Made by a program: the position numbers and the translations under genes | The notes under the pieces: generated by a model | Database searches by the model: none | Seen by the model: only the letters and a program-made list of their open reading frames with translations | What the model was told of the DNA's origin: nothing | Origin: a virus | Reading direction: 5' to 3' (one strand) | Length of the DNA stretch: 41,626 bases | Virus record (IMG/VR): IMGVR_UViG_3300042301_003361 | Location: 1 to 41,626 of that record | Shown here: in pieces, positions 5,712 to 41,626 of the stretch | How the letters are laid out: each line of letters starts with the position of its first letter | Numbering within the stretch: position 1 is the first letter of the stretch

Positions 5712-6128
5712 TTACTGAGATATGAATTGTTTATCTAATTTTTGACCTTCGTATGGTCCAGTTTTATACTCATAGACTATAGTATTATCTTCTAGTATTA
5801 AATATGTATGACCACCATAAAGTGTAAAACTCGCGTCACCTGGTAAAAGTATCTCTTCACTAATTATAGTATCATCTATGTCATAAAGAAAACATTTAAC
5901 GCTGCCTTTTATTACAACCCAAGACTCTTGAGCTATCTGATTCTCGTAAGTTCTTTTTTTTGTTATATGTTTGTGAGGTGGAAATGTTTTACCTTTTGGC
6001 ATATTTAAAGTTGCACATTGTATAAAATTATCCTCTGGAACTATTTCTCTTCTTGATTCGATCTCACTTAATCTATTTATTATATGAAGCAACTTAGTTG
6101 GCTCTACTTTTGAATATATTTTTTTCAT
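5712..6128 (-). CDS. WbuC-like cupin
   Basis: The single-domain cupin shows FPPHKHITKKRT...QESWVVIKGSVKCFLYDIDD, then LLPGDASFTLYGGHTYLIL, where the paired His and the later Gly-rich strand form the usual metal-binding barrel. This pattern is close to the WbuC family found in O-antigen and capsule loci. I placed the start at ATG 6128 because it makes an ATGA overlap with the gmd stop, a coupling used repeatedly in this window; an in-frame ATG at 6155 would add nine residues. It probably acts on, or binds, a sugar intermediate; the biochemical role of WbuC is not settled. Confidence 0.65.
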   Translation of the reverse strand: MKKIYSKVEPTKLLHIINRLSEIESRREIVPEDNFIQCATLNMPKGKTFPPHKHITKKRTYENQIAQESWVVIKGSVKCFLYDIDDTIISEEILLPGDASFTLYGGHTYLILEDNTIVYEYKTGPYEGQKLDKQFISQ

Positions 6129-8110
6129 ATCTTTTTCTGTAAAGTATTCATCCATCCATTAATCATATCATCCATAAGAGTTTCAAAACTATACTCAGGT
6201 TTCCAGCCTAATGTTTCTCTTATTTTTGTTGAATCACCTTTTAAATATTTCAACTCTTCTGCTCTTAAAAATTTCTGATCCTGGTATACATATTTTGTAT
6301 AGTCTAAATCTAATTTTCCAAACACATACTCTACCATTTCTCTAACTGAGTGTGTTGTCATTGTCGATACAACAAAATCGTCTGGTATATCATGATTTAT
6401 TATCATGTGCATTGCTTTACAATTGCCAGATATAAATCTACCTTTAATACCTTCTGTTATTATTGTTTTATTTTTTTGAGTTTCTACGCACCAAATATTT
6501 TCTTCAACATATTCAACAGATACGTCTGTAATGTATTGATGAACTGATTTCTTCGCTTTTGAGAAAACGCTTACATCATATGTCCCAGATTTTCTTTTAA
6601 CTATTTTACAGCGATAATTAGCTAAATTGGCAATATCATAAAATTGTTTAGCTAGTTTTAAGCGTGTTGATATGTATGTCATAGAACTCCAGCATCCATC
6701 ACAATTCATCATTGTTTCAAATAATAACTGAGCCTGTCTTTTAGAAAAATTATATATATACGATGGTAATTCATGAATATCAAATCCATCAAAATAATCT
6801 ATTATTAAGTCCCTAGATTCTGCGTTAAATATAAATTCATTAACACCATCCTCTCTAACTCTTTTATTATATTTTAATTTCAAAGCGTTGATACAATCAA
6901 CTAATTGATTTAGATATTTTTTGCTACTCTGACTAACAGATAATTGCATTCCGCCACCTATAGTTTTAGATTTTGACAAACATCCTTCAGTTGCCAAATA
7001 ACCAATAAGTATTATCATATTATCATTTATATCGTAATCTTTATTATTTATTCCTACGAATCCTGGGAATCTATAGTTATATTTAGCTCTTAATTTAGTA
7101 TCATTAAGTGCAGCGTACATATTCTCTGCTGTTGTTTCTAACCACCCTCCCCAATTCTTGCTATTGCTAGATTTTCTTTGATAAATAATTCTATGGTTTG
7201 GTGAAAATCTATGACTAAAACCATTTCCAGAAAATACATACATATTACCCTTATGCTCTACATCATATATCTTTTCAATAATATCTTTCTCCCATATATC
7301 TTTATCCGTATTATAATTTATTATCTCGTCCCCTATATTAAGTTCGTGTCTAAATTTATATCCAGATGGTGTTAGTAATTTTGAATCTAAGTCGATGCAA
7401 TAATCTTTGGAATGTCCCCAGTCACGATAAGAGTCCATATTTCCTAATACTAATTTATCAGTTAGTCCCAGTTTTATTTCAACTGCGGTTTTTACAACTT
7501 TATTAGTTACAAAGTTAGATCCTCTTCGTGGAGACTCGTGATTGAATAATATCCCATTACAGGTATGTAATTTATAAGCGTTTCTATAATTCCTAACAAT
7601 ATTATAGCCAAAAACTTTAGAACATCCATAAGGACTAACTGGATTCATAGGAGTTGTTTCTCTTTGAAAACCATCTAAATCTACGGAATTACCAAACATT
7701 TCAGAAGAACTTGCTTGATAAAATCTAGCTTTTGGACATGAACGTCTGTACGCTTCTAAAACATTAAGAACGCCAATTGCATTTGTTTGAACTGTAAATT
7801 GAGGTATATCAAAACTAATTCTAACATGGCTTTGAGCCGCAAGGTTGTAAATTTCGTCTGGCTGTATCTGGTCAAATAATCTTTCAATACCACCTTGGTC
7901 TAGTAAATCCCCGTAGTGAATATTAAGTTTATGTCTAATGTCTTCGCTGAATCTACTTTGTTGCGATTCTACTGTTGAATTTCTTCTTATAATCCCATGA
8001 ACTTCGTAGCCTAAGCTCAATAGATACTCCGATAAGTAACTTCCGTCCTGTCCATTAATACCTGTAATAAAAGCCTTACGACCTTTATAATTTATTTTCT
8101 CCTTTTCCAT
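6125..8110 (-). CDS. gmd: GDP-mannose 4,6-dehydratase with in-frame intein
   Basis: 661 residues, of which 335 are enzyme and 326 are intein. The extein is a short-chain dehydrogenase/reductase: TGINGQDGSYL near residue 16 binds NADP, SSSEMFG (134-140) holds the catalytic Ser/Glu, and YGCSK (161-165) is the YxxxK pair. The enzyme converts GDP-D-mannose to GDP-4-keto-6-deoxymannose, the branch point to GDP-fucose, GDP-rhamnose and GDP-perosamine. The intein splits the conserved RDWGHxKDY block. Without it the protein has normal family length. Downstream genes for an aminotransferase-like and an acyltransferase-like protein lie just upstream in transcription order, and a GT11 fucosyltransferase is in the same cassette. 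Confidence 0.9.
   Translation of the reverse strand: MEKEKINYKGRKAFITGINGQDGSYLSEYLLSLGYEVHGIIRRNSTVESQQSRFSEDIRHKLNIHYGDLLDQGGIERLFDQIQPDEIYNLAAQSHVRISFDIPQFTVQTNAIGVLNVLEAYRRSCPKARFYQASSSEMFGNSVDLDGFQRETTPMNPVSPYGCSKVFGYNIVRNYRNAYKLHTCNGILFNHESPRRGSNFVTNKVVKTAVEIKLGLTDKLVLGNMDSYRDWGHSKDYCIDLDSKLLTPSGYKFRHELNIGDEIINYNTDKDIWEKDIIEKIYDVEHKGNMYVFSGNGFSHRFSPNHRIIYQRKSSNSKNWGGWLETTAENMYAALNDTKLRAKYNYRFPGFVGINNKDYDINDNMIILIGYLATEGCLSKSKTIGGGMQLSVSQSSKKYLNQLVDCINALKLKYNKRVREDGVNEFIFNAESRDLIIDYFDGFDIHELPSYIYNFSKRQAQLLFETMMNCDGCWSSMTYISTRLKLAKQFYDIANLANYRCKIVKRKSGTYDVSVFSKAKKSVHQYITDVSVEYVEENIWCVETQKNKTIITEGIKGRFISGNCKAMHMIINHDIPDDFVVSTMTTHSVREMVEYVFGKLDLDYTKYVYQDQKFLRAEELKYLKGDSTKIRETLGWKPEYSFETLMDDMINGWMNTLQKKI
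6422..7399 (-). other. LAGLIDADG intein in gmd
   Basis: Residues 238-563 of the gmd product. It begins with Cys (CIDLDSKLLTPSGY), the usual first splicing residue and block A, and ends in ...GRFISGN followed by Cys as the +1 extein residue, so the penultimate residue is Gly, not the common His. A homing endonuclease domain is inserted: ILIGYLATEGCLS and LLFETMMNCDGCW have the positions of the two LAGLIDADG helices. Removing it rejoins WGHSKDY to CKAMHM and restores the conserved dehydratase block. Such inteins spread by cutting intein-free alleles at the insertion point. Confidence 0.88.
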
Positions 8111-8113
8111 ATT

Positions 8114-8710
8114 TTATTTAAATATTTCCATTTTTGTTAAATCAGGCCAATCAGTAACTACCCATTTTCTAGGTGGTGTGTTAATAGCTTTTTCTAATTT
8201 TTTTAATCCTAATTCAGCAGTTTCAGGAGTCATATAGTAATGATACCCGATTGTATCAATATTTTGATCTCTCCATGGAATGTTTGGTAATCTACCATCA
8301 TAAGACATTTTTTTTAGTATAGTATAGTCATCTTTATTGTCAAGTAAAATTACGCCGCCCCTACCTAATGAAAGATGTTTTTGATACTGAAAACTAATAC
8401 ACATAAATGTGTTTGGTATATAGCTATCCCTTTTCCAAAGAACAGCGGCATCTATTATCTTTTTATTACCAAAATTAAGAATATAATAATCTTCCCATTC
8501 TTCATCTCTCCATTCTCTCTCCAATCCCATTTTTTCTGCTAAAAAGGGAACTGAAAGATACGTTCTTTTAGGCACGGTTATTTTAATCTCTCCTGTGTAT
8601 CTTAAACATAATTCAATACCATGGGTGCAACTATCAACTGCAACAGCAAAAGTCGCACCAAAGAAATTGGCCACTTCTTCTTCAAATTTACTAATAATTT
8701 CAAATGACAT
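8114..8710 (-). CDS. Short DegT/DnrJ/EryC1-type PLP aminotransferase
   Basis: 198 residues from ATG 8710, about half the usual 370-400. The large-domain landmarks are present: FEEEVANFFGATFAVAVDSCTHG at the N-terminus, IIDAAVLW (Asp87, which contacts the PLP ring nitrogen), and SFQYQKHLSLGRGG, where Lys111 is the Schiff-base lysine. The protein ends soon after YHYYMTPETAELGLKKLEKA, where full-length relatives continue into the small C-terminal domain. It would aminate a keto sugar if active; the obvious substrate from the neighbouring gene is GDP-4-keto-6-deoxymannose, which would make GDP-perosamine. Truncation makes activity uncertain. Confidence 0.7.
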   Translation of the reverse strand: MSFEIISKFEEEVANFFGATFAVAVDSCTHGIELCLRYTGEIKITVPKRTYLSVPFLAEKMGLEREWRDEEWEDYYILNFGNKKIIDAAVLWKRDSYIPNTFMCISFQYQKHLSLGRGGVILLDNKDDYTILKKMSYDGRLPNIPWRDQNIDTIGYHYYMTPETAELGLKKLEKAINTPPRKWVVTDWPDLTKMEIFK

Positions 8711-8717
8711 ATTTATT

Positions 8718-9248
8718 TTAATTTTCGTTATAACCTATTTTTTTCGCATTCTCTATTATCTTTGTTGGGTCAATTTTCTTTACCAATACTGCTGGATTTC
8801 CTTTGTAAATTCCCCACTCTTCGGTATCCCCTATTAATAAGCTACCGGCAGTTAATAAAACACCCTTTCTAAGGATTGAGCCTGGCAATACAATAGCATT
8901 AGTCCCTATATTAGAAAATTCTTCCATAACAATTGGTTTTATTATTTGCGTACCCTTTAAGTCGCTTGGTATCATAGCTCCAAATAAACCAGAGTCATCA
9001 AATCTATCCGAGCCACAAACGATCCTAGCCCCGGCCATTACATTATTAAAACCCTTAGCCGTGAATGAACTATTACTACCTCCTATTATAGTAACGTAAG
9101 GCCCAATATGAACATAGCTACCAATAGTAGCATTTACTGTGCAATAAAATCCCTTATCTATAGCAACATGTGAGCCATTTATTATCAACTCTTGTTTTGT
9201 TGTAATATCTTCATCAAGGATTATATCGTCACCTATTTTTTTTATCAT
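8718..9248 (-). CDS. Hexapeptide-repeat acyltransferase (left-handed beta-helix)
   Basis: 176 residues. A run of imperfect hexapeptides with I/V/G at the turn positions starts near residue 35 (VNATIGSYVHIGPYVTIIGG) and resumes after an insertion (MEEFSNIGTNAIVLPGSILRKGVLLTAG), ending in GNPAVLVKKI, the standard C-terminus of sugar O- or N-acetyltransferases. These are trimeric and use acetyl-CoA. Placed next to gmd and a DegT-type gene, an N-acetyltransferase step on a 4-amino-6-deoxy sugar (PerB-like) is the simplest reading; O-acetylation of a polysaccharide is the alternative. Confidence 0.75.
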   Translation of the reverse strand: MIKKIGDDIILDEDITTKQELIINGSHVAIDKGFYCTVNATIGSYVHIGPYVTIIGGSNSSFTAKGFNNVMAGARIVCGSDRFDDSGLFGAMIPSDLKGTQIIKPIVMEEFSNIGTNAIVLPGSILRKGVLLTAGSLLIGDTEEWGIYKGNPAVLVKKIDPTKIIENAKKIGYNEN

Positions 9249-9249
9249 A

Positions 9250-10107
9250 TTATTTTTTGAAAATTTCTTTTATATTTTCTCCCCATAATACAGCCCCGGC
9301 AAAAACACCACTATGAATACCAAATAAATAATCACATTTACCTAGTAATTTTGTTTGTATTATTGTTTCTTCACCCAAAAGTTTGTTTTGATTTTCGCGT
9401 TTAGTGCTTACATTTGGCCATAGAAAAACTCTATTCATATATTCTGTTGTCTCATCAGTTCTTCTAAAAACATCTGGAATAAAATATGAATTTGGAAAAC
9501 TTTCTTTTAAAAGTTTAATGTAATTAGAGTCTTCACTAACTAAAAATAATTTAGTTATGTTTGGATTATTTTCTAATATTGATTTGATAGATTGGATATA
9601 TTCGTAAATAGAATAAACGCCGTAATTTGGATGATGGAAGTTAAATTCGCAACCCCTAGCTATAACGCCTAAAACAGTATGATTTTTTAGTTCATTATTA
9701 TAGATTTCATCTATTCTATCTAATATTGGTTGTTTTATTTTTAAATACTTTCTTTCAATTTCGCGCTGTTTTTCTAAATTATACTTATCGTGAAAATAAT
9801 CATACGCATGGTTAATTAGTGTTAACCTATCTTGATTTACTGGGTTAGTTATTATATCATCACTTATTGGTATTATTTGGTCAAACCAATAATCAAATGG
9901 ATTTTCTTTTTTAACTAATACATCTCCGTCGAATGGATTGAATCCTTCTACCCAGGCAGTTTCACCCCAATCAATATATGGTATGCCGTGTATATTACCA
10001 TCATTCAACATCAAGCTTTCCAATACAATTCTATAATTTGAAAAGAAGCCAGATCCAAAAGAATTTGGACTGTTGTCATTAGGTTTAAATCTTGTAAATT
10101 TTTTCAT
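9250..10107 (-). CDS. Putative glycosyltransferase (fucosyltransferase-like GT-B)
   Basis: 285 residues from ATG 10107. The C-terminal half resembles alpha-fucosyltransferases of the GT11/GT23 type: HTVLGVIARGCEFN takes the place of the Gx(H)xRGxD strand, ITKLFLVSEDSNYIKLLKESFPN is the predicted nucleotide-binding strand, and IIQTKLLGKCDYLFGIHSGVFAGAVLWG resembles the late donor-binding loop. The His and the second Arg of the canonical HxRRGD motif are not present, so the assignment is tentative. The gene is tightly packed with a TylF-type methyltransferase upstream. Confidence 0.5.
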   Translation of the reverse strand: MKKFTRFKPNDNSPNSFGSGFFSNYRIVLESLMLNDGNIHGIPYIDWGETAWVEGFNPFDGDVLVKKENPFDYWFDQIIPISDDIITNPVNQDRLTLINHAYDYFHDKYNLEKQREIERKYLKIKQPILDRIDEIYNNELKNHTVLGVIARGCEFNFHHPNYGVYSIYEYIQSIKSILENNPNITKLFLVSEDSNYIKLLKESFPNSYFIPDVFRRTDETTEYMNRVFLWPNVSTKRENQNKLLGEETIIQTKLLGKCDYLFGIHSGVFAGAVLWGENIKEIFKK

Positions 10108-10868
10108 TATTTATTTTTTGTTTTCTTCCAATATATAGAAGATGAGTCTATTTTTATCATTTCATCTACTATGCCATTATCTCTTCTAAAATCATTAACA
10201 GCATCAGAACAAGCTATGAACGAAAAATCATCAATAATTACATACCCATTGATAGATAACTTATCATATAAATTTGTTAAAGCATCCATAGTTGATTCAT
10301 ACATATCGCCATCTAATCTAATAATTGCAAATTTATCATCAACCTTCGGTAATGTTTCAGAAAACCATCCTTTTAAGAAAATAACATTATCATCTAACAA
10401 ATTGAATTTAGAAAAATTATTTTTGACATCTTTTTGTGATATTTTCAAAAAATCATAAGTATGATGTATATCATTTAAATCTTTTGGATATTTATCTGGA
10501 TTTGGTATTGGTAATCCTTGAAATGAATCAGCAACATATACTTTTTTATTTACATTATATTTATTGAATAAATACTTTACAAACATACATGCGCCACCTT
10601 TCCAAACACCAGTTTCTATAAAAGAGCCTTCTACTTTATTATTAACAATATCTGTAACTAAATGCTCTAAATTTGTAAGTCTTTTGTATCCAATCATTGA
10701 TAAGGCTGGTCCCAAATCTTTGAATTCAACCCACTCTGCTAAATCATTTGGTATTTCAGCGTCGCTTAAATTTTTAATTTCTTCTTCGTTTAATTCATTG
10801 TTAATGAATTTTCTTACATTATCGTTAGAAACAGCACCTAATAAAATTTTTTTTAATATTTCAGTCAT
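10107..10868 (-). CDS. TylF/MycF-family O-methyltransferase
   Basis: 253 residues from ATG 10868. The family signature is clear throughout: ETGVWKGGACMF (85-96, SAM loop), ADSFQGLP (113-120), VIFLKGWFSETLP, RLDGDMYEST (185-194) and IIDDF (211-215), where the Asp residues bind Mg2+ and the sugar hydroxyls. These SAM-dependent enzymes methylate hydroxyls on deoxysugars (macrocin O-methyltransferase is the type member) and are common in glycan loci of phages and bacteria. Its stop overlaps the next gene's start by one base. Confidence 0.85.
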   Translation of the reverse strand: MTEILKKILLGAVSNDNVRKFINNELNEEEIKNLSDAEIPNDLAEWVEFKDLGPALSMIGYKRLTNLEHLVTDIVNNKVEGSFIETGVWKGGACMFVKYLFNKYNVNKKVYVADSFQGLPIPNPDKYPKDLNDIHHTYDFLKISQKDVKNNFSKFNLLDDNVIFLKGWFSETLPKVDDKFAIIRLDGDMYESTMDALTNLYDKLSINGYVIIDDFSFIACSDAVNDFRRDNGIVDEMIKIDSSSIYWKKTKNK

Positions 10869-10878
10869 TTTTATTTTT

Positions 10879-11499
10879 TTAATTTATTTTATACCAAGAT
10901 TCCCAAACAAACGGATAATCAAATTTTACCGCAAAATTATTCTTTTCTAAACCTTTTCTAATTTTATCTCGTCTTTCTAAATCATTTTCAATTCCTAGAT
11001 GAAACTGAACTTGTATGTTTTTAAATTTATTTATAGAGCCAGTTTCTAACATATTTTCTAAAAGTGGGTACTCATCGCCTTCAATATTAATTTGTAATAA
11101 ATCAACATTATCTAACCCCCATTTATTTAAAATTGTATCAATAGTATTGAATTCAACCTCTATACACTTGCCTTTAGTTAAATTAGATGATGTTCTGTCA
11201 CCATCTATAAAAATAAATCCATTTTTATTTTCAGTAGAAATCCCAACATTTAATAAATGGATCTTATTGTTATTTGAAAACTTGTCAATTATTTTTTCAT
11301 AAAAATCAATTACCGGCTCTACTATATATATATTTGGATTATATTTATCTATAATTTGCTCTGCCCAAATCCCTGTATAACCACCAAGGTCAACTACAAT
11401 TGAATTTTCATTCAAATCATAAGTTATATTATGTGTGTAGTCGCCTTTATCAGCAATCCATCTACTCAATTCTTTCTCATCTAAAAATAAATTACTCAT
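10879..11499 (-). CDS. FkbM-family methyltransferase
   Basis: 206 residues from ATG 11499; the frame continues upstream to 11583 but that part lies inside the fucosyltransferase gene, which stops at 11504. SAM-binding features are VVDLGGYTG (35-43), an acidic strand end in IYIVEP, and later NVDLLQINIEGDEYPLL, the conserved K/NxDxEGxE-like segment of FkbM. C-terminal strands with VQFHLG complete the Rossmann fold. FkbM enzymes methylate sugar or polyketide hydroxyls. Neighbour order (GT11, FkbM, TylF, GT) suggests it decorates the same glycan. Confidence 0.75.
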   Translation of the reverse strand: MSNLFLDEKELSRWIADKGDYTHNITYDLNENSIVVDLGGYTGIWAEQIIDKYNPNIYIVEPVIDFYEKIIDKFSNNNKIHLLNVGISTENKNGFIFIDGDRTSSNLTKGKCIEVEFNTIDTILNKWGLDNVDLLQINIEGDEYPLLENMLETGSINKFKNIQVQFHLGIENDLERRDKIRKGLEKNNFAVKFDYPFVWESWYKIN

Positions 11500-11503
11500 T
11501 TTT

Positions 11504-12304
11504 TTAAATTTTATGCCATGTTTCTGGCAGTATGTCACTAGAATTATACTGCAAGTTACTACCGAACCATATTTTTGGACCAATAACTATTTTATTTTCA
11601 TTTCTATTTAACCAAGCGCCCCACCAAGAAAACGACGAATTGCATACAATATTATTTTTACACAAAGACATTAAATAAAGTTCAATGTAGTCTTTTTCAT
11701 TTTCAATGCAAACTGCATTTTTAATTTTTATATTATTCTTGCACCATTCAATGTCATCACTGAAAATTAAAAATAATTCAGTTTCATACTTTAGAATTTC
11801 GATACAAGATAAATAATATTGCAAAGACTGTACTGGATGATGGTTTGGATATTTTAAATAATCACCCCTTCTAATATGTATGCTTGTGCATTTAATATCT
11901 CTAACGAAAGCGTATTTCTGATTTATAACAGTATCGTAAATTGAAAAATCATAAAAATACTCTAAAATAGCTTTTCTATTATGTTTGAAATATTTTTCAC
12001 TTTGAAAAAATCCATCTATAAAAAATGTATTGTCTAATATATTATAATTTATATACTCAAATGGATATACATAAGTTTTTAATGGAGTTGTTGGAACTTG
12101 CGTTTTTAAATTTTGTAAAAAATTTAGGTATTCAAAACTATGTTTTAAATTTGGATTGTAGATACTATCCTCATTAAGTTTATTTAGATGTTCAATTAAA
12201 TTAGGAAATGAGCAATCAGTATTTCTATCAATAGACATTGATTTAGTCGCTGCTATCTGAAATAAAATATTACCAAGTCCGCCCTTTAAATTGCAATATA
12301 TCAT
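11504..12304 (-). CDS. GT11-family alpha-1,2-fucosyltransferase-like protein
   Basis: 266 residues. Motif I, SIHIRRGDYL (141-150), is the HxRRGDY signature that binds the GDP part of GDP-fucose, and CNSSFSWWGAWLN (221-233) is the highly conserved late motif of GT11. The N-terminus (LKGGLGNILFQIAA) is also typical. Length is slightly below the bacterial average of about 290. It would add L-fucose in alpha-1,2 linkage if GDP-fucose is available; gmd supplies the first step, but no GDP-fucose synthase (fcl/wcaG) is seen in this window, so the second step would have to come from the host or another part of the genome. Confidence 0.85.
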   Translation of the reverse strand: MIYCNLKGGLGNILFQIAATKSMSIDRNTDCSFPNLIEHLNKLNEDSIYNPNLKHSFEYLNFLQNLKTQVPTTPLKTYVYPFEYINYNILDNTFFIDGFFQSEKYFKHNRKAILEYFYDFSIYDTVINQKYAFVRDIKCTSIHIRRGDYLKYPNHHPVQSLQYYLSCIEILKYETELFLIFSDDIEWCKNNIKIKNAVCIENEKDYIELYLMSLCKNNIVCNSSFSWWGAWLNRNENKIVIGPKIWFGSNLQYNSSDILPETWHKI

Positions 12305-12310
12305 ATCTAA

Positions 12311-13030
12311 TTAGATTTTATTATATCTAGGGTAGGGTTTCTTACTCATTACTTTTCGGCCTATATGCGCGACATTGTAACCATCTACTTTATATTCATT
12401 CAACGGATTCGTATCATTGTAAACATAATTAATATCTTCTAAAAAATGATAATGTTCTTCCCCGGCCATTTCCAGCATTGGAAACATAAAAGACGTATCG
12501 CCAGCCGCTGACCAGTAAGTGCCAGTCTCATCTTTAAGATCGTCTTCTTTGATATTTCTCCAAAGAAAAGCTCTCCATGTTCTCATGTGCGAGGCGCTAA
12601 ATGATGATACCCTTAAATAAGGTATATCTTGTTTTCTTGAAAATCCCTGTGAGCCATTGCTAAAAACAAAGCTACCATTAGTGATCCACACGTCGTCATT
12701 TTTATATACATCATGTATTCTTTTAAAAACATCTTCATCTGGCAACCAGTCATCACCATCTACCTCAACAATAATATCATTATCATTTATATTTGGATTA
12801 TTTCTAATAACTTGATCGTAATTACCAACTTGATAATGCTTTTCTTTATTTTCAATTAATATAAATCTATCATCATCTTTGATAAGCTCTTTTACGATAG
12901 CTACTGAATTATCAGTTGAAAGATCATCTGTAATATAGCATTTAAAATCTTTATAACTTTGATTCATAATACTATATAAACATAATGCAATATATTTTTC
13001 AGCATTATATAGAGTTGTGACTATTATCAT
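12311..13030 (-). CDS. GT2-family glycosyltransferase
   Basis: 239 residues from ATG 13030; an in-frame TTG nine bases upstream overlaps the previous gene and is less likely. GT-A features: IIVTTLYNAEKYI at the N-terminus, DDLSTD (35-40), and VEVDGDDWL with the DxD motif (91-94). A C-terminal segment with RAFLWR and TYWSAAGDTSFMFPMLEMAG corresponds to the ED-like catalytic base region. It transfers a sugar from a nucleotide donor by inversion. No membrane segment is present. Confidence 0.8.
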   Translation of the reverse strand: MIIVTTLYNAEKYIALCLYSIMNQSYKDFKCYITDDLSTDNSVAIVKELIKDDDRFILIENKEKHYQVGNYDQVIRNNPNINDNDIIVEVDGDDWLPDEDVFKRIHDVYKNDDVWITNGSFVFSNGSQGFSRKQDIPYLRVSSFSASHMRTWRAFLWRNIKEDDLKDETGTYWSAAGDTSFMFPMLEMAGEEHYHFLEDINYVYNDTNPLNEYKVDGYNVAHIGRKVMSKKPYPRYNKI

Positions 13031-13031
13031 A

Positions 13032-13856
13032 TTATTCAAATATATCTATTATTTTTTGAGTATTCTCTCTTGCGAGATCTATCAATTCATCACCTTTTAA
13101 ATGTGACGACTCTTCATATAGAAATGCAATATTTTCATTTCCTATTATTTGCAGTCCTAAACATCTAGCTTCAAAAGAAATTCTGCTGAAAGTTTCAAAA
13201 ACAGTAGGTAGAAATATCAACCCTTTATATTTTGTTAGTTCCAGTAAAAACTCTGCATGTGGCCTAAGACTTATTAACCTTATATCAAGGTTATTAGTTC
13301 GCGCAAATTCTAAGGTGCCAATTGTATTTTTAATTGGATTTGAATAGTTTAGTATAGCATACACATCTTCTTTTTCAACTTTGGATAATTTAGATAATAA
13401 ATCCAAAGAATCATTATTCCATGGATTGCCTTTCGCCGATATCAAATTATCTAATTGTAAATTTCTATTTATAATTTCAAGATGCTTATCGCATTGAGCA
13501 ATTACTTTATCAGCTTTTTTATAAAAATCTTCGTTTATTATATGCTCTTTTGGCGCTGTAAGTAAAGGATAATTACATGGATTTCTTGTAGAAATCATTT
13601 TGAAATCATGTTCGTAAATACTATAATTTCCATACTCCATTATTTTGTTCTTAGCGTCTTCCGATAGTAATGTAAAATTACATACAAATAATTTCGAGTT
13701 AGATTGTAATATACTATCGTTGAATTTATTTGCATGTATCTTGGTAACATTTTTGCCACGATCTTTTAATCCGTTTATTACAACTTCTACGGCAATCTCT
13801 GAACCGCCCTTTGGATACTGCTCTTGAAAATAATCTGATATAAAAAAATAATTCAT
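13032..13856 (-). CDS. GT-B glycosyltransferase (GT4-like)
   Basis: 274 residues. The N-terminal half starts with YFFISDYFQEQYPKGGSEIA, the acceptor-side Rossmann strand with a Gly-rich loop. The C-terminal half has VYAILNYSNPIKNTIGTLEFA, LISLRPHAEFL, and KGLIFLPTVFETFSRISFEA, where the ETFSRISFE stretch has the E-x7-E spacing of GT4 retaining enzymes, followed by GLQIIGNEN. It is shorter than bacterial GT4 enzymes (about 370) but has both domains. It begins the minus-strand glycan run after a hairpin that separates it from nrdA. Confidence 0.65.
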   Translation of the reverse strand: MNYFFISDYFQEQYPKGGSEIAVEVVINGLKDRGKNVTKIHANKFNDSILQSNSKLFVCNFTLLSEDAKNKIMEYGNYSIYEHDFKMISTRNPCNYPLLTAPKEHIINEDFYKKADKVIAQCDKHLEIINRNLQLDNLISAKGNPWNNDSLDLLSKLSKVEKEDVYAILNYSNPIKNTIGTLEFARTNNLDIRLISLRPHAEFLLELTKYKGLIFLPTVFETFSRISFEARCLGLQIIGNENIAFLYEESSHLKGDELIDLARENTQKIIDIFE

Positions 13857-29063: not shown

Positions 29064-29178
29064 TCCTTTTATCCCCGTACCTAAAGTATTTTACACTAAG
29101 TTAAGAAAAGAAAGCTCAATTAAAATAATTTGAAAAAAAATTTCAACTTTGAATAATTATGTTGTAATAAAATATATA

Positions 29179-29592
29179 ATGAATTTAGAATCTATAAGCA
29201 AGCAGTATAACTTTGATGGCGGAATGGTTTATTCATGTCAATATCATGTGATTTTTGCGACTAAGTATCGTAGAAAAGTTTTAATAGATGGGGTTGATAC
29301 TGAATTTAAACGTATTTGCCTAGAAAACCAAGAGAAATTGCACTTCAAAATTTTGGAAATGGAAGTGATGCCTGACCATATTCATCTTTTAGTTGAGTCG
29401 AACCCTAAAATTGGCATCTACGATCAAGTAAATAGAATTAAGGGTTTGACAAGTCATGAGCTAAGAAATAAATTCCCCTGGCTCAAAAAGCGCATTCCAA
29501 CGCTTTGGACTCGTTCTAAATTTATCTCTACTGTCGGTGCTGTTTCATTGGAAGTTGTTAAAAAATATATAGAGGATCAAAAAAAAGTTTAA
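29179..29592 (+). CDS. tnpA: IS200/IS605 TnpA transposase (HUH, Y1)
   Basis: 137 residues from ATG 29179; a TTG at 29149 would add ten residues and is less likely. The HUH motif is MPDHIHLLVE with His67 and His69, and the single catalytic Tyr is Tyr130 in VVKKYIEDQ. Length is standard. TnpA nicks and rejoins single-stranded element ends recognised as hairpins. All catalytic residues are present, so it may be active. Its TAA overlaps the tnpB ATG by one base. Confidence 0.92.
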   Translation: MNLESISKQYNFDGGMVYSCQYHVIFATKYRRKVLIDGVDTEFKRICLENQEKLHFKILEMEVMPDHIHLLVESNPKIGIYDQVNRIKGLTSHELRNKFPWLKKRIPTLWTRSKFISTVGAVSLEVVKKYIEDQKKV

Positions 29593-30827
29593 TGAACGAG
29601 CAAAAGAAATACCAGATTAAGAAAACGCTACTTGAAACTAAGTCGCGCCGTAAAGGTATGTCTTGTAAGGTTTTTGAACTAAAAGTTGATGAAAGTAAAT
29701 TATCAAAAAAGAAAGATGAATCATTAGAACAAATTTTCAAAGAGGCGAAGTGGATTTACAATGCGGCGCTGGATTCTGATGATGTTTTTAAATTTGAAGT
29801 TGGCTCGGCTATAAAAGTTAAAGTTTTCAACCCGGAGACAAATCTATGTGATGTTGAAGAAATTCGCCCATTATCTATTGGTAGTCAAATTAAGCAATCT
29901 ATAGTTCAGAGAATAAAACAAAATATTATAAATTTGTCAAAGGCTAAAGCTAAAGGGGTGAGGGTCGGCGCTTTAAAATTTAAAAAAGAGATCAACTCTA
30001 TCCACCTTAAACAATTTGGAACGACTTTTAAAATTGGGAAGAGCTTCGTTTCGGTTCAAAATATTGGCAAAATAAAAGTTAATGGTTTACATCAAATTCG
30101 CGCAGGATATGAAATAGCTAACGCTACATTGGTAAAAAAAGCCTCTGGATATTATATCTTGATTACAATATTTGAACCAAAATCTCAGATTGAAACTTCT
30201 GGGCAAATTGGTTTAGATTTTGGGATTAAAGATGCGATTGTTGATTCAAACGGTAATAAATTTAATTGGAAGTTTAATACAAATAAGATCAAGCGTGATT
30301 GTCGTAGATTCTCAAAGAAGAAAAAAGGCTCTAAAAACAAAATAAAAGCTCAGAAACGTCTTGGGAAATCTTATGAAAAAATCACTCGTCAAAAAGATGA
30401 TGCAGCAAATAAATTTGTATCAACTCTTAAAAAGTATGAAAAAGTTGTAATTCAAGATGAGAATTTAAAAGGCTGGCAAGCAGGATTATTCGGAAAGCAA
30501 GTTCAAGAATCAATTTTGGGAAGAATAAAGGCTAAGATTAAAAACTTAGAGACTTCTCAAGTTATAAATAGATTTTTTCCGACTACCCAATTATGTCCAA
30601 AATGCGAAATTAAAAATAAAATTCCATTAAGCCAACGAGATTATTCGTGTTGTTGTGGTTTCTATCATTTTGATAGAGACGTAAAGGCAGCTCAAGTAAT
30701 TTTAACTTATGGAACAATTCTTGGGGAACCCAAGACTAAGCCTGCGGAGAAAGCGACCTCTTTTTATAACACTTTTAGTGTTTTATTTAAGTCGAATTCA
30801 TTGAAACAGGAAGCCTCAATCCTTTAG
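29592..30827 (+). CDS. tnpB: TnpB RNA-guided nuclease
   Basis: 411 residues. RuvC residues: Asp209 (IGLDFGIKDAI), Glu290 (VVIQDENLKGW) and the HFDRDVKAAQ motif (Asp361/Asp363). The zinc finger is formed by CPKC (335-338) and the CCCGF cluster (353-355). The N-terminal WED/REC-like part is complete, and the length is normal for the family. TnpB is the ancestor of Cas12 and uses an RNA from the element's right end to cut the empty site, which helps retain the element. The 3' part of the gene overlaps that RNA. Confidence 0.92.
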   Translation: MNEQKKYQIKKTLLETKSRRKGMSCKVFELKVDESKLSKKKDESLEQIFKEAKWIYNAALDSDDVFKFEVGSAIKVKVFNPETNLCDVEEIRPLSIGSQIKQSIVQRIKQNIINLSKAKAKGVRVGALKFKKEINSIHLKQFGTTFKIGKSFVSVQNIGKIKVNGLHQIRAGYEIANATLVKKASGYYILITIFEPKSQIETSGQIGLDFGIKDAIVDSNGNKFNWKFNTNKIKRDCRRFSKKKKGSKNKIKAQKRLGKSYEKITRQKDDAANKFVSTLKKYEKVVIQDENLKGWQAGLFGKQVQESILGRIKAKIKNLETSQVINRFFPTTQLCPKCEIKNKIPLSQRDYSCCCGFYHFDRDVKAAQVILTYGTILGEPKTKPAEKATSFYNTFSVLFKSNSLKQEASIL

Positions 30828-34123: not shown

Positions 34124-37100
34124 TTAAGCGACTAGAGTATTTGACACTGGTCTTTGTATTGGTGGTGGTAGATTATTTTCTCTATTTATATTTGCTAGTG
34201 CTGAGTAAACTGCGTCTCTTACTTTATTTGGATCAACAGAACCTACCCCGTTGAAAGATATATTAACAGTTGGAGCAACTTGTGTTGTAGTTGGAGTAAC
34301 TGGAGTTGTATTATTAGATTGTACATTTGTATTAGAATTTAATTTTTCTAATTCTTTTTTCAATTCTTCGATTTTCTTAGTATTATTAAGTATATCTGCG
34401 TTCAATACATCCCTATTTCTTTCAATCCCTCCTTCAAATAAGCCACTATCTCTTGAGACTCCAGATAGTAGCCCTTGGTAAGATGAATTTTTGGAATATT
34501 TTTGAAAAATTTTCTCCTTGTCTTCTAAACTAGATTCGGGAAATTTCTTTTCTATATATACCTTTAAAGCCTCGTTTAGTTCGGATGGCGACGATGGTAA
34601 TTTACTAGCACCCTCGAATTTTAAAAATTCACGCATCCTAGCTCCTCCCATTTCATTTCCAGCGCCATATAGTCCTAGAGGGTTATCTTTATTAGATAGA
34701 GATGGGAATAATGATGTTGCTCCTAATGAATAGATTTTTTCTCTACTTGTATCTGAATCCGCATCTAACTCTGCTTTTTTTACAGCACCTCCAAGAATAA
34801 GACTAGCATCTGTAGCTTTTTGTAAATTATTTGCCTTGAAAGTTGTATCTGTTTGTAGAGCCTGCATTTGACTTGATAAACTAAACGCCTTTACTTGATC
34901 GTCACTTTTAGTTCTTAGATCATTAATTTTAGACGGAAGATCATTTAATACAGTTTGGAGTGCATCTAATGATAATGTATTTTGTAATAAAACTGTAGTA
35001 TTGCTTCCTATAGCGTCTATTTGTGCATCAAATTCAGGTGGTAATTTATCACCTTTTATAGTCTTATCAGCCAGTACCTTAGCGGATTTTTCTGCCGAAA
35101 GAAATACCTCTTGAACAATTCCAGTTTCATCTAATATAACGTCTAATGCCCTTTGCATTGCACCATCCTTGCCAGCCTGCGGCATTAAACTCTGCATGGT
35201 TTTAACAAATTCCGCGGTAATAACTGGAATTTGGCCAAGATCAAATGATTTCTTTACAGATTCTAACTGTCTATCTATAGCTTTTCTACCGATACTACCA
35301 GTATCCTTTCCTGCTATTTTATTTTTAAGAATATCAAATTGAGGTAATATTTCGCTTTGACCGAAAGCTAATGCTCTATTTTCAACATTAGATTTTCCAG
35401 CAAGATATAAATCTTTATAATTTCTTTCATTTATCTTCTCTCTTGTTACTTTTGGTAATTCTATATCAGCAAAGTAACTAGCTCTATTTGTAGCTATTTC
35501 AATATTTCTCTGAGATCTATCTACAGCATCCATAGATCCAGGTTTAGCTGATCCAATATTTGAAATCTCTCCAAATTGAAAATTATTAGCCTTTTCACCT
35601 CTTGCTACAGTAGTTAAACTACCTTTAGGTTGTTTTATAGATCGTAAAACATCTCTAAAATTAGAATTAAAACCACCTAATATATTAAGTAACTTTGTAT
35701 CAGCTAATTGTTTTTGTTGTACTTCTGTTTGATTTTTTAATTCTTCGTTAGCCTCTTTAGATTTATTATCTATATCTTGCAATTTAGACGCCATCTCAAT
35801 ATTAGTTTTTAATAATTGAGATTGTAGACTTTTAGATACATCTGGATCAAGTATTTTTTGAATCTCATCAGTTAATTTTAATGGATCGAATGGAGATTCA
35901 CCTGTTATAGATTTGTTTAGAACATCTTGAATTTTTATCTGATCCTCAAGTGAAGTTCCACTAGCCTGAGACATTATATCTTCAAGAACTTTGTTTGTAT
36001 ATTCATTTCCTAGAGATGTTTTTTCTATAGCAGTTTGCTGCCCTATTCTAGCCTGTTTTATTCTAGTAGAACCTTTTAACAATTCTTCAGGTGAAAGTGA
36101 TTCAGATGATTTAGCTAGAATCGCCTCGGCGTTAGAAAATCCTATTTCATTACCAGAAATTATATTTTTGTTTACAGATTGATTTTGCGCAAATGTACTT
36201 GTTAGTATATTTAAGAAGGAGTCTTTTGTAGAGGCAAATATTTTGGCTGTATCAATTTGCTGCGAAGATAATTGATCTAAAGATTTTTGAGCAACAATTA
36301 AAGATTGTGCAAATTTTAGAATCTGTTCCGAAGCGCCAGTTTGGTTCTTTGATCCGTCATTAAAAAATGTATTTATATTATCAAATACTTTACCAACTTC
36401 AGCATTATCTAATCCAAGATCTTTTAGAGAGGCTTTACCACTTTTAGCTTTGGATACAGCTTCATCTGATATTTTAGATAGATCAATAGTTTTAACTAAT
36501 TCACTGGCAATGGTTTGACTATCGGAACTATCTAAAAATTTCCTACTACCACCTAGTATTCTACTTATATTTGCAGATACACCGGAAGCTTTTTCATTAA
36601 TAATACTGCCAGCAAGCAAACCACTATCAGTTAAGGATTGCTTTCTTTGATTAGTTAATGTTACATCCTGAATTATAGAGGCCCTCTCTTCATCAGTTTT
36701 AGCTTTTAATAATCTTGCCCCAGCATTTCCAGAAAGACCTCTTGTAGATTCGGAAAGAGCGGTTTTGGCTTGAGCTACTGTACTTGGTGAAGAGTTACTA
36801 TCAATTAGTGATTTTAATTGACTTGAAGTTTGAACAAAGGCTTGTAAAGAAGATATTTCTTTTTCGTTGGCAGCGGTTACTTCTCTTGATTTTTTTGAAA
36901 GCTCATTTAAATCAGGTGTTAATTCCTTTACAACTGTGGACAATACTTGGAATGAACCAACAGCAGCACCAGCAGCAACACCCCAAGGCCCAAATTGTGA
37001 TAATAACAAGCCCGTTCCCAAAGCTTCACCAATACCAGATGTGACTCTACCAGTAGAAGTATCCTGTCCACCTAGTGTATTCGCTATACCACCAGCGACA

Positions 37101-40100
37101 AAAGGTAAGGCAAACGCGCCTGTTTGAATAGCAGTTTGTTTATTTGATCTAACTTTCTCTCTTTTATCTATGAACTCCTGACTTGATGTAGATATATTTA
37201 ACTTCTTTGCTATTGATTTTAATTTTTTATCACTTGTAAAGAAACCGGATTGAGCGGAAAAAGCTTCAAAAGCTTTAGCCTCTTTATCTTTAAAACGCTT
37301 CTCTATTTTCGACGCACCTTCTTTACCAAGAGATTTTTCAGCCCTTTCAATTAAACTCTTGAGATTCTGTTCTGGCCCGCCAAATTGTAGATTAGAAACT
37401 CTACCTTCAATTATAGACGCAATTTGCCCTTGGCGACCTCTTACACGCTTATCTCTTGCAAACTGCTTTTCACGAGAAGCTTTATCTTTCTCATATTGAT
37501 TTATATTTTTTTCTCGATTAGCCTCTGCTTTCTCTCGTTCTTTTTGAGCTTTATTCCTAGATTTTATATCCTTTTCAATAGCCTCATTATTCTCTTTCAT
37601 GAGATCGGCTTCTCTTTTCGCTTCATCATTTGATAAAGACGGATATGGCACCCAAGGTCCGGCTTTTGGAGGAGGTGGCTGCCAAGGTGAACTTAAAATT
37701 GGTGGCTTTGCTTTTGCACCAGCTTTTGTTATTTTTTCAGTCACCGGCCCGGGGACGGGCACCCCAAGTCTTTTTAATAGTTCTTTTACTGTTTCTCTAG
37801 GTGATGTTTGAGTATCTTCTACTTTATTTCTTAGTATTGGTGGCAACTCAACAGTAGGTGATCCTAGACCCCCGTTAAGAATTGGAGTTGGAAACGGTAC
37901 TCCAAGTTTTGTTACAGTTTCGAGTTGTTTAAGATTTGGAGTAAAGTTTCCTCCTTTTCTAACCGTTTGTATATTACCATAAGTAGCTGATCCAGTTAAA
38001 GTCTTTTGTATATTTTTTTCAATATACTCGTCGGACTTCTTCCTAGCCTCAGTATCTCTTAATCTCTCAATCATTGTTGAATCAAAAGATATTTTTGCTA
38101 AATCTCTATAATTTACAGACTTTCCTGTATTAAATGAGGCTGGAAGACCAACTATATTTGATGAAATTGCCTTTTGAGCAATAGGCCCCGGAACTGGTAA
38201 ACCAAGTCTTCTTGCAGTTTCGCTTTTACCATAAGGCTGACCAGTTGGATCAACTAAAGCAGCATTTTTATTAGAAGGAATATTTGTCGGATCTATTATT
38301 CCTTTAAACTTTTTATTAGTTGTGTCGGTTATATCTATTATAGATCCTGTAGTCCTCCTTAAAGACGATAAGAAGGATGTGCTTAGGTAATCCCCTAAAT
38401 AAGAGAAGCTATTAGATAATCTCTTTGTTGAAATTATCAATAAACCTAAATTCTTAGATGAAACCTTTTCAGTTGATGTTTTTAGATCTGCGAAATTTGG
38501 AATAATGCCGCTTGAGAGAGATTGCCCGGCATGTTGTCCGAGAGCTTGACCTAGTGACATTTGACCCTGGGCGGTATTGTAAACACCTAACCCGCGTGGA
38601 TTCTTATCACTTTTTAATCTATCATGAGATCCAACCTTGATTGAATTTTTGGCAATATAAGATGGATAACCCATACTTAATAGAGAGGACATCTCCCTTC
38701 CCATTGATTGTGACAATAATTCTCCTAATGATAATGCTTTTAATTTACCTTTTTTAGATTCATCGTATTTCAAGATAGTTCTAATATCAGAATCAAATAT
38801 ATCCCCGGAAATGGCCATATTTGTAGAGGTTCCACCCATTCTATGTGAAATTCTTCTTTCTCTATTCTCGCCAGCAATATTTTTTCTAAAAGCAAGCATA
38901 TAACCCTCACCCTTATTTTTATTAGCCTGTTCTGAATACCCCCTTGCATGATTTATAGATGAGGAAACAAATGTTCCCCTATCACCGCTATAATTATCAG
39001 TCCAATTACTCGCAAAACTACCCTTATTTAATATAGATTCAACTTCGCCTCGATCAGTACCTCTATACAAAGTCGTGGATTTGTTGTATTTACCCATGCT
39101 ATCCCAAAAACCATAACCAGAAAGATCATTTATAGCCCTAGAACTTCTTAACTGTCTTTTTAATTGCTTATAATAATGTCTATAAACTGATTTATCTATA
39201 GCAAAGTTAGGAATAATTCCATCTGCATAATTTAAATCTCTTTTAGCGGCAAGCTTATCTTTTAGTTTACCGTAATCTGGATTTGTTACTATACCAGATT
39301 CTTTCTGCATAAATAATCCTGGATCAATAAGTGATATTCTACCACCTCTTCTTGCGAAAGCGGAGGCTATCGTATCTAAATTTCCATCTCGTATAAGCTT
39401 GGAACCTTCATTACTATCTGGATTTAGAAGTTTACGGTATCTATTTAATAATTCTATACCCTTCTCATTAACCATTAAATTCCCTTGATGTAGATCACTC
39501 GCACGTATGCCAATTTTATCCATAGCCTTACTTACGACACTTCTTATAACTGAATATTCGCCTTCATTCAGTTTATTTTGATAAAATGTTTGTTCGAAAG
39601 TCTTCCCATTTACAATCTCTTTACCTATTCTTAATTTAGCTCCTGCTTTTTCTAAAGATCCATATACCCTTGGTGCGTGAAGTCCTGGTAATAATTTTGG
39701 ATGATCTCCAAGAGTCTTGGCAATTGGGTATTCATAACGTAACTCCTTCTCACTAATAACTTTCGATGGATTTAAGAATCTTTTAACTCCCACATTACCT
39801 CTTAATTTATAAAAAGCTCCATAAGCACCTCTACCTAGAATTTTTTCTTTTTTATATTTACCAAGGGGGGTATAAGGTTCTGGAGGTAAAGGCTTTCCTG
39901 CTTTTTTTTCTTTAAAAGCGCGTAATCTTTCTTTAAGTGTTGGATTCACTATAGGTTCTTTATCTCTTTTTTTAAATCTTTCTGTTGTTTTCTTTATATA
40001 GCCATCTGTTCTTGATCCCAGATCCATTAAAGATTCATCATCAAAAAAACCAGTCAAATCAACCTCAGACCCGTCTTTAGTAGTTATTTTTTTAAGTCCG

Positions 40101-41626
40101 CCTAAATCTGCTAAAGCAAGTTTCGTTTCTATTGCGTATAGGAAATCTTGAGCTTTTTGAGATTTTTGTTCTAAAAAGTTTTTAACATTCGAGCCCGCTT
40201 TACTAGCGCGACGACCTTGGTGAAGTACAGATTCACGCACTCGCTCTGGATTTCTGCCTCTTTCAATAAAATTATTTAAAAATTCTTTTTTATCAGATCC
40301 TATATAATTAGTATCAAAAAATTCTGGATTGACATTATAATTAATGTTATCTAATACGCTTCTATTCCTATAATTATCATCTTTAATAGTTTCGTAACTA
40401 CCATTTCGGTGTCTAATAGTCTGTACATTTGATTTATTATAATATCCATCTGAATCATCATTCTTTAAAAAGTCCGCGCCCCTTTCAGAAATATAAAGAT
40501 CTATCATCTTCCTTTTTCTCTCGGCCTTCATATCTCTCTTACTCTTCGGCATTGCAAAATTAGGAATCAAGCCGCCCGCAAAGTTATCTTGAATCTGACT
40601 AAATTTAGATATTTTTCTTATATCACTATCTGGTAACTGACCTATCTGACTCTTTAAATCATGGAGACTAGAAAATTTCTTTTCAGATTCACCTATATGA
40701 TATTTACCAGATGTATTTTTTGTAATACCATCCCTATATCTTAACTGCGGGAAAAGTTTATAAAGTAGATCTATTCCCTTATCTTTTGTATTATCTCTTG
40801 ATCTTTGTTTTACAAGAGCCGAGCTTTTTATAATAAAATCTTTTCTCTTTGCGAAATCAGCTAAAGCAGAGTAATTCTTAAACGCATCTCCTTTTTTATA
40901 AGATTCTGTATCTTCAATTTTTATTATTCTATTTTTTCTGTCAGCAGTGAATCGAGTGAAACTCTCCCAATTGGAACCTCTCCTAACTGATCTATCGGAA
41001 AGAAACTGGCCGCCAGGTATATAGCCCAAATTATCTAAATCAAGGTCATCTAATAAATCTAAAAGTTCATCATCCTTTTCCTGAAATCTATTTCTTCTAG
41101 CAAAATTCGGAACAAAACCATTTGCCTTAGATTTAACTGGAATATTCTTCATTATTAATTCCCTCATTAAATCAGACATAGCTCTGCCGCCAAGAATTGA
41201 ATTTCTATCACCGCGATCTAAGAATGAATAAGCAAAAGTATCAGCAAATGATTCTGAAAAATAATCCCTTTTAGGATAAGTTTGAATAAAATTATTTCTT
41301 GTATATTTTTGATTTAATAAAGAACCCTTCTTTTTTACATCAAATTTATGAGCCGATTTGAATAGATCCATTAAAGCTGGATCAGAGTTGTATTCTACAA
41401 AATGTCCATACTCATGAGCCGGGGTGCTATAACCACCATAATACGGACTTTTATTAGATATAACATCTGGATGCACAAATACATTATTATTGTTTGGCCA
41501 AAATTCCCCATAATCTTGAAGATCTTTTCTAAATCTAACTGGTTTAGTCCTAGCACCACTTATATTTTCCGCTATTTGTCTTATGAAATCTATTTTTTGG
41601 GGATTTAATCCATATGTATTTCCAGT
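34124..41626 (-). CDS. Giant tape-measure protein with metallopeptidase, kinase-like and ART-like modules (5' end outside window)
   Basis: 2500 residues are visible and the frame is open to the window edge, so the N-terminus is missing. Numbering here starts at the GTG at 41476; 50 more residues precede it. Order: HEYGH (21-25) with a later ESFADTFA (75-82), a zincin pattern; a kinase-like module with GRGAYG (548-553), Lys565, DLHQGN (661-666) and IDPG (717-720); an ADP-ribosyltransferase-like module with YRG (804-806) and TFVSSS (835-840). Four GxxPNFA motifs separate these blocks. Then come three LGxPxPxP motifs, a charged coiled coil (about 1290-1400), a Gly/Ala-rich hydrophobic stretch (about 1445-1520) and about 900 helical residues, as in tape-measure proteins. 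It precedes the distal tail genes, the usual place. Confidence 0.8.
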   Translation of the reverse strand, partial: TGNTYGLNPQKIDFIRQIAENISGARTKPVRFRKDLQDYGEFWPNNNNVFVHPDVISNKSPYYGGYSTPAHEYGHFVEYNSDPALMDLFKSAHKFDVKKKGSLLNQKYTRNNFIQTYPKRDYFSESFADTFAYSFLDRGDRNSILGGRAMSDLMRELIMKNIPVKSKANGFVPNFARRNRFQEKDDELLDLLDDLDLDNLGYIPGGQFLSDRSVRRGSNWESFTRFTADRKNRIIKIEDTESYKKGDAFKNYSALADFAKRKDFIIKSSALVKQRSRDNTKDKGIDLLYKLFPQLRYRDGITKNTSGKYHIGESEKKFSSLHDLKSQIGQLPDSDIRKISKFSQIQDNFAGGLIPNFAMPKSKRDMKAERKRKMIDLYISERGADFLKNDDSDGYYNKSNVQTIRHRNGSYETIKDDNYRNRSVLDNINYNVNPEFFDTNYIGSDKKEFLNNFIERGRNPERVRESVLHQGRRASKAGSNVKNFLEQKSQKAQDFLYAIETKLALADLGGLKKITTKDGSEVDLTGFFDDESLMDLGSRTDGYIKKTTERFKKRDKEPIVNPTLKERLRAFKEKKAGKPLPPEPYTPLGKYKKEKILGRGAYGAFYKLRGNVGVKRFLNPSKVISEKELRYEYPIAKTLGDHPKLLPGLHAPRVYGSLEKAGAKLRIGKEIVNGKTFEQTFYQNKLNEGEYSVIRSVVSKAMDKIGIRASDLHQGNLMVNEKGIELLNRYRKLLNPDSNEGSKLIRDGNLDTIASAFARRGGRISLIDPGLFMQKESGIVTNPDYGKLKDKLAAKRDLNYADGIIPNFAIDKSVYRHYYKQLKRQLRSSRAINDLSGYGFWDSMGKYNKSTTLYRGTDRGEVESILNKGSFASNWTDNYSGDRGTFVSSSINHARGYSEQANKNKGEGYMLAFRKNIAGENRERRISHRMGGTSTNMAISGDIFDSDIRTILKYDESKKGKLKALSLGELLSQSMGREMSSLLSMGYPSYIAKNSIKVGSHDRLKSDKNPRGLGVYNTAQGQMSLGQALGQHAGQSLSSGIIPNFADLKTSTEKVSSKNLGLLIISTKRLSNSFSYLGDYLSTSFLSSLRRTTGSIIDITDTTNKKFKGIIDPTNIPSNKNAALVDPTGQPYGKSETARRLGLPVPGPIAQKAISSNIVGLPASFNTGKSVNYRDLAKISFDSTMIERLRDTEARKKSDEYIEKNIQKTLTGSATYGNIQTVRKGGNFTPNLKQLETVTKLGVPFPTPILNGGLGSPTVELPPILRNKVEDTQTSPRETVKELLKRLGVPVPGPVTEKITKAGAKAKPPILSSPWQPPPPKAGPWVPYPSLSNDEAKREADLMKENNEAIEKDIKSRNKAQKEREKAEANREKNINQYEKDKASREKQFARDKRVRGRQGQIASIIEGRVSNLQFGGPEQNLKSLIERAEKSLGKEGASKIEKRFKDKEAKAFEAFSAQSGFFTSDKKLKSIAKKLNISTSSQEFIDKREKVRSNKQTAIQTGAFALPFVAGGIANTLGGQDTSTGRVTSGIGEALGTGLLLSQFGPWGVAAGAAVGSFQVLSTVVKELTPDLNELSKKSREVTAANEKEISSLQAFVQTSSQLKSLIDSNSSPSTVAQAKTALSESTRGLSGNAGARLLKAKTDEERASIIQDVTLTNQRKQSLTDSGLLAGSIINEKASGVSANISRILGGSRKFLDSSDSQTIASELVKTIDLSKISDEAVSKAKSGKASLKDLGLDNAEVGKVFDNINTFFNDGSKNQTGASEQILKFAQSLIVAQKSLDQLSSQQIDTAKIFASTKDSFLNILTSTFAQNQSVNKNIISGNEIGFSNAEAILAKSSESLSPEELLKGSTRIKQARIGQQTAIEKTSLGNEYTNKVLEDIMSQASGTSLEDQIKIQDVLNKSITGESPFDPLKLTDEIQKILDPDVSKSLQSQLLKTNIEMASKLQDIDNKSKEANEELKNQTEVQQKQLADTKLLNILGGFNSNFRDVLRSIKQPKGSLTTVARGEKANNFQFGEISNIGSAKPGSMDAVDRSQRNIEIATNRASYFADIELPKVTREKINERNYKDLYLAGKSNVENRALAFGQSEILPQFDILKNKIAGKDTGSIGRKAIDRQLESVKKSFDLGQIPVITAEFVKTMQSLMPQAGKDGAMQRALDVILDETGIVQEVFLSAEKSAKVLADKTIKGDKLPPEFDAQIDAIGSNTTVLLQNTLSLDALQTVLNDLPSKINDLRTKSDDQVKAFSLSSQMQALQTDTTFKANNLQKATDASLILGGAVKKAELDADSDTSREKIYSLGATSLFPSLSNKDNPLGLYGAGNEMGGARMREFLKFEGASKLPSSPSELNEALKVYIEKKFPESSLEDKEKIFQKYSKNSSYQGLLSGVSRDSGLFEGGIERNRDVLNADILNNTKKIEELKKELEKLNSNTNVQSNNTTPVTPTTTQVAPTVNISFNGVGSVDPNKVRDAVYSALANINRENNLPPPIQRPVSNTLVA
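37745..38206 (-). repeat. Three LG-(V/L)-P-(V/F)-P-(G/T)-P motifs in the tape-measure protein
   Basis: LGLPVPGP (38183-38206), LGVPFPTP (37883-37906) and LGVPVPGP (37745-37768), each preceded by a charged helix end (ARR, TVTK, LKR) and spaced about 45-100 residues. They lie in the Pro-rich linker between the enzyme-like modules and the coiled coil. Confidence 0.7.
38489..41119 (-). repeat. Four G-(F/L/I)-(V/I)-P-N-F-A motifs in the tape-measure protein
   Basis: GFVPNFA (41099-41119), GLIPNFA (40553-40573), GIIPNFA (39200-39220) and GIIPNFA (38489-38509). Each follows a small/polar residue pair and precedes a charged segment, and each falls at a boundary between predicted modules. The codons differ between copies, so the motif is kept at protein level. 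Confidence 0.8.

Follow-up and report, generated by a model that had tools for sequence, protein, structure and literature searches.

What purpose a single phage protein could have for a chain of enzyme-like segments, each set off by a copy of one short PNFA motif, is the question raised by a long open reading frame (ORF) at positions 34124..41626 (minus strand, as are all of its features given below) of IMG/VR record IMGVR_UViG_3300042301_003361, a 41,626-base stretch from an uncultured virus that is called the window here. The 2,500-codon ORF encodes, as judged by homology, a tape-measure protein, the kind that determines how long the tail is, and we consider it reasonably probable that exchangeable enzyme-like cassettes (zincin-like, GNAT-like, kinase-like, and ADP-ribosyltransferase (ART)-like) lie between its N-terminal core and its C-terminal part, and that it also carries effectors acting in the cytoplasm. 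The ORF is the longest in the window and the last on its strand, and the next two genes downstream (549 and 540 residues) have homologues in motif-bearing loci, with E-values to 4.5e-54. The C-terminal tape-measure part (34127..38488) aligns over residues 1451-1750 with 122 nonredundant relatives, and in the full-length relatives L017, L058, and L082 (L-numbers label relatives bearing the motif or homologous tape measures) the N-terminal core matches PhageMin_Tail with E-values of 1.7e-24 to 2.6e-28, in agreement with the initial annotation, which was made from the DNA letters and had named the gene a tape measure. The core of the relatives also matches tape measures in 251 phage records. Neither a single-sequence search for relatives with the N-terminal part of the window ORF nor a tblastn search of phage records with the entire protein gave a match. 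Among 45 nonredundant complete relatives, a core of ~550-645 residues usually precedes the first motif, followed by a module region of 0-2,300 residues and a C-terminal part of mostly 1,000-1,800 residues, and the length of the module region is not offset by that of the C-terminal part (rho 0.03). Because the window ORF is open at the edge where the record stops, and in its relatives the first motif is preceded by a tape-measure core, the window does not reach the true N-terminus, and the stretch first described as the N-terminal 1000 residues does not start at the N-terminus of the protein.

Four in-frame copies of [AS]-x-G-[FLI]-[VI]-P-N-F-A were found in the ORF, at residues 168-176 (motif 1, ANGFVPNFA, 41099..41125), 350-358 (motif 2, AGGLIPNFA, 40553..40579), 801-809 (motif 3, ADGIIPNFA, 39200..39226), and 1038-1046 (motif 4, 38489..38515). 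Residue shuffling of the motif-bearing stretch gave an expectation of 0.007 PNFA copies against the four observed, and the back-translated DNA pattern matched the window 4 times and 100 dinucleotide shuffles not at all, bearing out the four motifs of the initial annotation. Across viral contigs, the DNA pattern matched 117 stretches compared to 2 for a scrambled control with the Gly and Pro codons swapped, a control that applies to this first pattern only. Three further scans brought the set to 313 ORFs, each 300 residues or longer and with the motif at least twice (233 nonredundant, 734 copies). Tape measures of this plan, with shuffled domains, appear to be built by hundreds of other uncultured phages. 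A slightly narrower pattern, run on a one-genome-per-species collection (84,980 species of bacteria and archaea), gave 9 matches, only 2 of them with repeated motifs, both on short phage-like contigs (L227 and L234); the others were taken as chance, being single motifs mostly in short frames. Single-match proteins of 1,829-1,832 residues (the L046 group) were left out as a different family. Literature searches on the motif returned nothing relevant.

A logo of 277 copies reads A-x-G-[FY]-[IV]-P-N-F-A, with the G, P, N, and F positions fixed by the search pattern, and holds little information beyond these nine residues. A less biased view comes from the copy that follows a conserved 75-residue block and was found by the homology of that block; in this copy G, P, and N never vary, Y can replace F, and the final A is unconstrained. 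At the end of the tape-measure core (L058 residues 575-636 and equivalents), more PNF and PNY variants are present (IPNFAFGGGKRG, EYIVPNYAGGG), and the motif may therefore derive from the core itself. A motif lying within one continuous fold would not be a divider, but in module 2, the one module for which this could be judged, the AlphaFold2 model (from a shallow alignment of 15 rows) has the domain finish at residue 347 and puts residues 349-358, the stretch with motif 2, in a predicted disordered linker outside the fold, with a predicted local distance difference test (pLDDT) score of ~34.

The segments between the motifs are families common to different tape measures, in differing order, and most of the window modules recur, differently ordered, in the tape measures of other phages. 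With the motifs masked, homologous alignments crossed a motif in 12.7% of cases compared to 26.8% under random placement, and the median distance from an alignment end to the motif end beyond it was 17 residues compared to 62, indicating that homology tends to end at the motif, as expected for a module boundary. The modules of relatives include a PolyA_pol head (E 1.6e-14) and AAA and GNAT matches in Pfam, as well as segments that resemble PD-(D/E)xK nucleases by eye, some of which are without parts of the ExK signature. In a study of phage protein mosaicism, sequence mosaicism was described in tape measures, and genuine recent cases were not confirmed (PMC10684548); the motif-bearing family looks like such a case.

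Several effector-type domains, namely zincin-, GNAT-, and kinase-like modules, lie on the one polypeptide in the window. Module 1 (residues 1-160, 41147..41626), truncated by the window edge, contains HEYGH (41402-41416) with a second acidic motif, SESFAD, downstream, giving the HExxH and downstream Glu of a zincin, and matches Pfam ATLF with an E-value of 1.3e-4, under the curated cut-off; both observations support its initial reading as zincin-like, and HExxH is also present in the tape measures of L045, L111/L004, and the L132 group. Module 2 (residues 220-347, 40586..40969), formerly a module of unknown type, is now predicted to have a GNAT acetyltransferase-like fold, modelled at pLDDT ~70-95, mostly 82-95, and has 12 homologues in other tape measures, found in a profile search with the motifs masked since the shared motif otherwise pulls in the tape-measure core. 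The first 14 Foldseek matches of this model were all acetyltransferases (among its structural matches are OrfE and At1g77540, which we take to be such enzymes), with probabilities up to 0.93; the best E-value, 0.03, is modest, so module 2 is presumably a divergent GNAT member. A viral structure library gave weak mixed matches only. Possibly related modules in L021/L111 have an RGKGIG loop and match Pfam Acetyltransf_1 (E 0.0014).

The third inter-motif segment (residues 359-809, 451 residues) was more complex than the four-module division first proposed; the motifs stand as dividers, but this segment joins a region without assignment (residues 359-590, 39857..40552), for which no homologue was found, to a kinase-like domain. 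This domain, module 3 (residues 591-800, 39227..39856), has a glycine-rich loop (GRGAYGAF), the VGVK lysine, a Glu, D-x-H-x-x-N (DLHQGN), and D-x-G (IDPG), and shares the invariant E42, D121, N126, and D178 of a six-sequence family with homologues in L012, L135, L077, L132, and L039. Its Pfam Pkinase match (E 0.023) scored 14.6 bits against a cut-off of 31.7, and a Foldseek search with a model from a poor-confidence prediction returned mostly kinases but at E-values of 1 or more; the catalytic residues kept in the relatives and the Pkinase match support the kinase-like reading proposed at the outset. The last segment likewise comprises the ART-like part already described and, in addition, a separate conserved block. 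Module 4 (residues 810-972, 38711..39199), weakly ART-like by motif (LYRGT, TFVSSS), has one homologue, in L234, 42% identical, and no relatives were found in viral contigs. The conserved 75-residue block (residues 973-1046, 38489..38710), which ends in motif 4, has 97 nonredundant tape-measure homologues, where it is mostly the last block before the C-terminal part; its conserved pattern, RE..AG...NPmGl.V.N..DEP, matched no known fold or function. PDB profile searches with the kinase, GNAT, and 75-residue-block families gave no match.

Kinases, GNATs, and ARTs require ATP, acetyl-CoA, and NAD, which are cytoplasmic, so that the modules, if active, must reach the cytoplasm, and from this we infer that they are delivered with the tape measure and modify host proteins early. 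Several phages release their tape measures during infection, and these have been implicated in genome entry (PMC11126660). As a section of the tape measure, the modules would accordingly be assembled into the tail and packaged in the virion; they would exit with the tape measure, whose ejection precedes that of the DNA, and would act in the host cytoplasm, modifying host proteins as soon as infection begins. A partner would recognise the motif: a protease that sets the modules free, which we slightly prefer, or a tail component that keeps them in place, although as far as the sequences go cleavage and docking are about equally open. A bolder version, which we put forward only tentatively, is that PNFA is the cargo code of a large group of uncultured siphophages, into whose tape measures any effector cassette could be inserted and then freed or put in position upon ejection, so that the tail would be a protein injector for several payloads with interchangeable enzymes. 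If true, a tape-measure route for effectors with a recurring separator would account for many environmental tape measures being so extremely long and mosaic, the motif would provide a simple sequence handle to hundreds of new early-infection enzymes, and a natural grammar would be suggested for putting protein cargo into phage tails.

Several observations weigh against the delivery of active enzymes in this way, and some of them lend themselves to other explanations. Single motifs occur in the tape measures L023 and L103, which have no recognised further modules, so the motif is not only a cargo separator, and the same observation favors a docking role, in which the motif is an anchoring ligand rather than a cleavage site and pins tape-measure linkers to the tube, a chaperone, or the tip while the modules stay attached. 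We regard docking of this kind as a serious possibility, though one that falls somewhat short of even chances; it fits the sharp bounding of the motif at nine residues in a disordered linker, and the tolerance of the post-block copy for F to Y and for loss of the final A, with G, P, and N invariant, is easier to reconcile with binding than with a single fixed scissile bond. On the other side, the other copies have a small A, S, or T after F, as a protease might need, a preference that the search pattern itself selected, and the motif is so far only a candidate ligand. Folded domains of this size would also not obviously fit the tail tube beside several tape-measure copies.

The activity of the modules is a further point of doubt. 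The acetyl-CoA loop of module 2 reads KKGDA and not the canonical [QR]xxGx[GA]; in module 4, the ART-like assignment holds for the R and the STS-like motif of the R-S-E triad, but the third acid seems to be Asp instead of the expected Glu and there is no Pfam match; and the structure model of the kinase-like and ART-like modules (7-row alignment, mean pLDDT 42.6) was unusable. As the ART shows no clear catalytic Glu, and the canonical RxxGxG loop is missing from the GNAT-like module, some modules may be inactive, and together with the incomplete ExK signatures of the nuclease-like modules in some relatives, this is what would be expected if the modules were structural inserts or decayed, non-catalytic domains kept as spacers or as filler of the tail lumen. 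We think this unlikely, as the catalytic Asp, the Asn, and the metal-binding Asp of the kinase-like module are kept across six divergent copies, HExxH occurs in at least four distinct architectures, and many different kinds of enzyme-like module recur. Less likely still, the modules could work while virions are assembled, on phage or host proteins of the producing cell, rather than in a newly infected cell; as parts of a late tail protein they would be made in the cytoplasm with all cofactors at hand, but fusion to an ejected tape measure would then be needless, and tail-like injectors use such fusions for effector delivery (PMC11126660, PMC13277306).

Effectors delivered by phages are known chiefly as head proteins. 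T4 Alt, a head-packaged ADP-ribosyltransferase (discussed in PMC5512222 and PMC9503650), resembles the delivery proposed here in principle, as a protein-modifying enzyme brought in with the DNA, but it is a separate head protein with no tape-measure part. Polyvalent proteins, known from phages and conjugative elements, are large multidomain proteins with zincin peptidases, kinases, GNATs, ARTs, and nucleotidyltransferases that have been proposed to enter the host with the DNA (PMC5512222), and the range of module types in the window tape measure overlaps with theirs. Here the vehicle is a tape-measure protein, whereas the word "tape" is absent from PMC5512222, and the modules are punctuated by one short motif. 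In contractile injection systems, an effector domain fused to a tape-measure-like protein is loaded in a tail-like particle and is exchangeable (Tme, PMC11126660; Sle1, PMC13277306), which is similar to the exchangeable effector-type domains predicted here; those systems have a C-terminal effector in a contractile bacterial particle, as opposed to several modules inside a phage tape measure. No polyvalent Pfam families were listed for the window modules or among 25 families listed for 98 modules, and the sheath family PF04984, expected in a contractile particle, was not found in 16 relative records (ten with lengths of 134-211 kb), the window itself being a fragment; with no polyvalent Pfam match and no sign of a contractile particle, the protein is placed in neither class. 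In the literature searched, no description was found of multi-effector cassettes that lie inside a phage tape measure and have one separator motif in common, and this combination is what is new here.

The phage itself is large and uncultured, and probably has a non-contractile tail. The N-terminal core of the relatives is homologous (E to ~1e-27) to the TP901-like-core tape measures of the large siphophages Bacillus FADO, vB_BcoS-136, and Lactococcus 949; the 75-residue block and a module stretch of L082, by contrast, had no match in any of 50,697 phage records. The terminase of L400 is nearest to those of large phages of Bacillus, Mammaliicoccus, Lactococcus, and Clostridioides, which overlap the group resembling the tape-measure core, while the window's own hub-like and RecA-like proteins had no match in phage records. 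A T4-like contractile origin was considered and found unsupported, with no sheath family found and a Gp23 search made without a positive control.

Other genes of the window were also recorded. Inside the tail gene cluster, on the opposite strand, sits an IS200/IS605-type element (29149-30827, plus strand) with a Y1 transposase and a TnpB-like protein with a Cas12f-like TNB domain. A minus-strand cluster of sugar-nucleotide, aminotransferase, glycosyltransferase, and TylF/FkbM methyltransferase genes (6125-13856) suggests glycan synthesis or modification, and its GDP-mannose 4,6-dehydratase gene (6125-8110, minus strand) is split by an apparent intein with a LAGLIDADG domain that starts CIDLDSKLL and ends GN before C. 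A protein at 3123-3614 (minus strand) resembles an outer-membrane beta-barrel by a weak Pfam match (5.6e-5), which would be unusual in a phage, and a small protein at 1-336 (minus strand) has an RNA polymerase alpha C-terminal domain (Pfam E 3e-9) and is a possible mimic of a host transcription factor.
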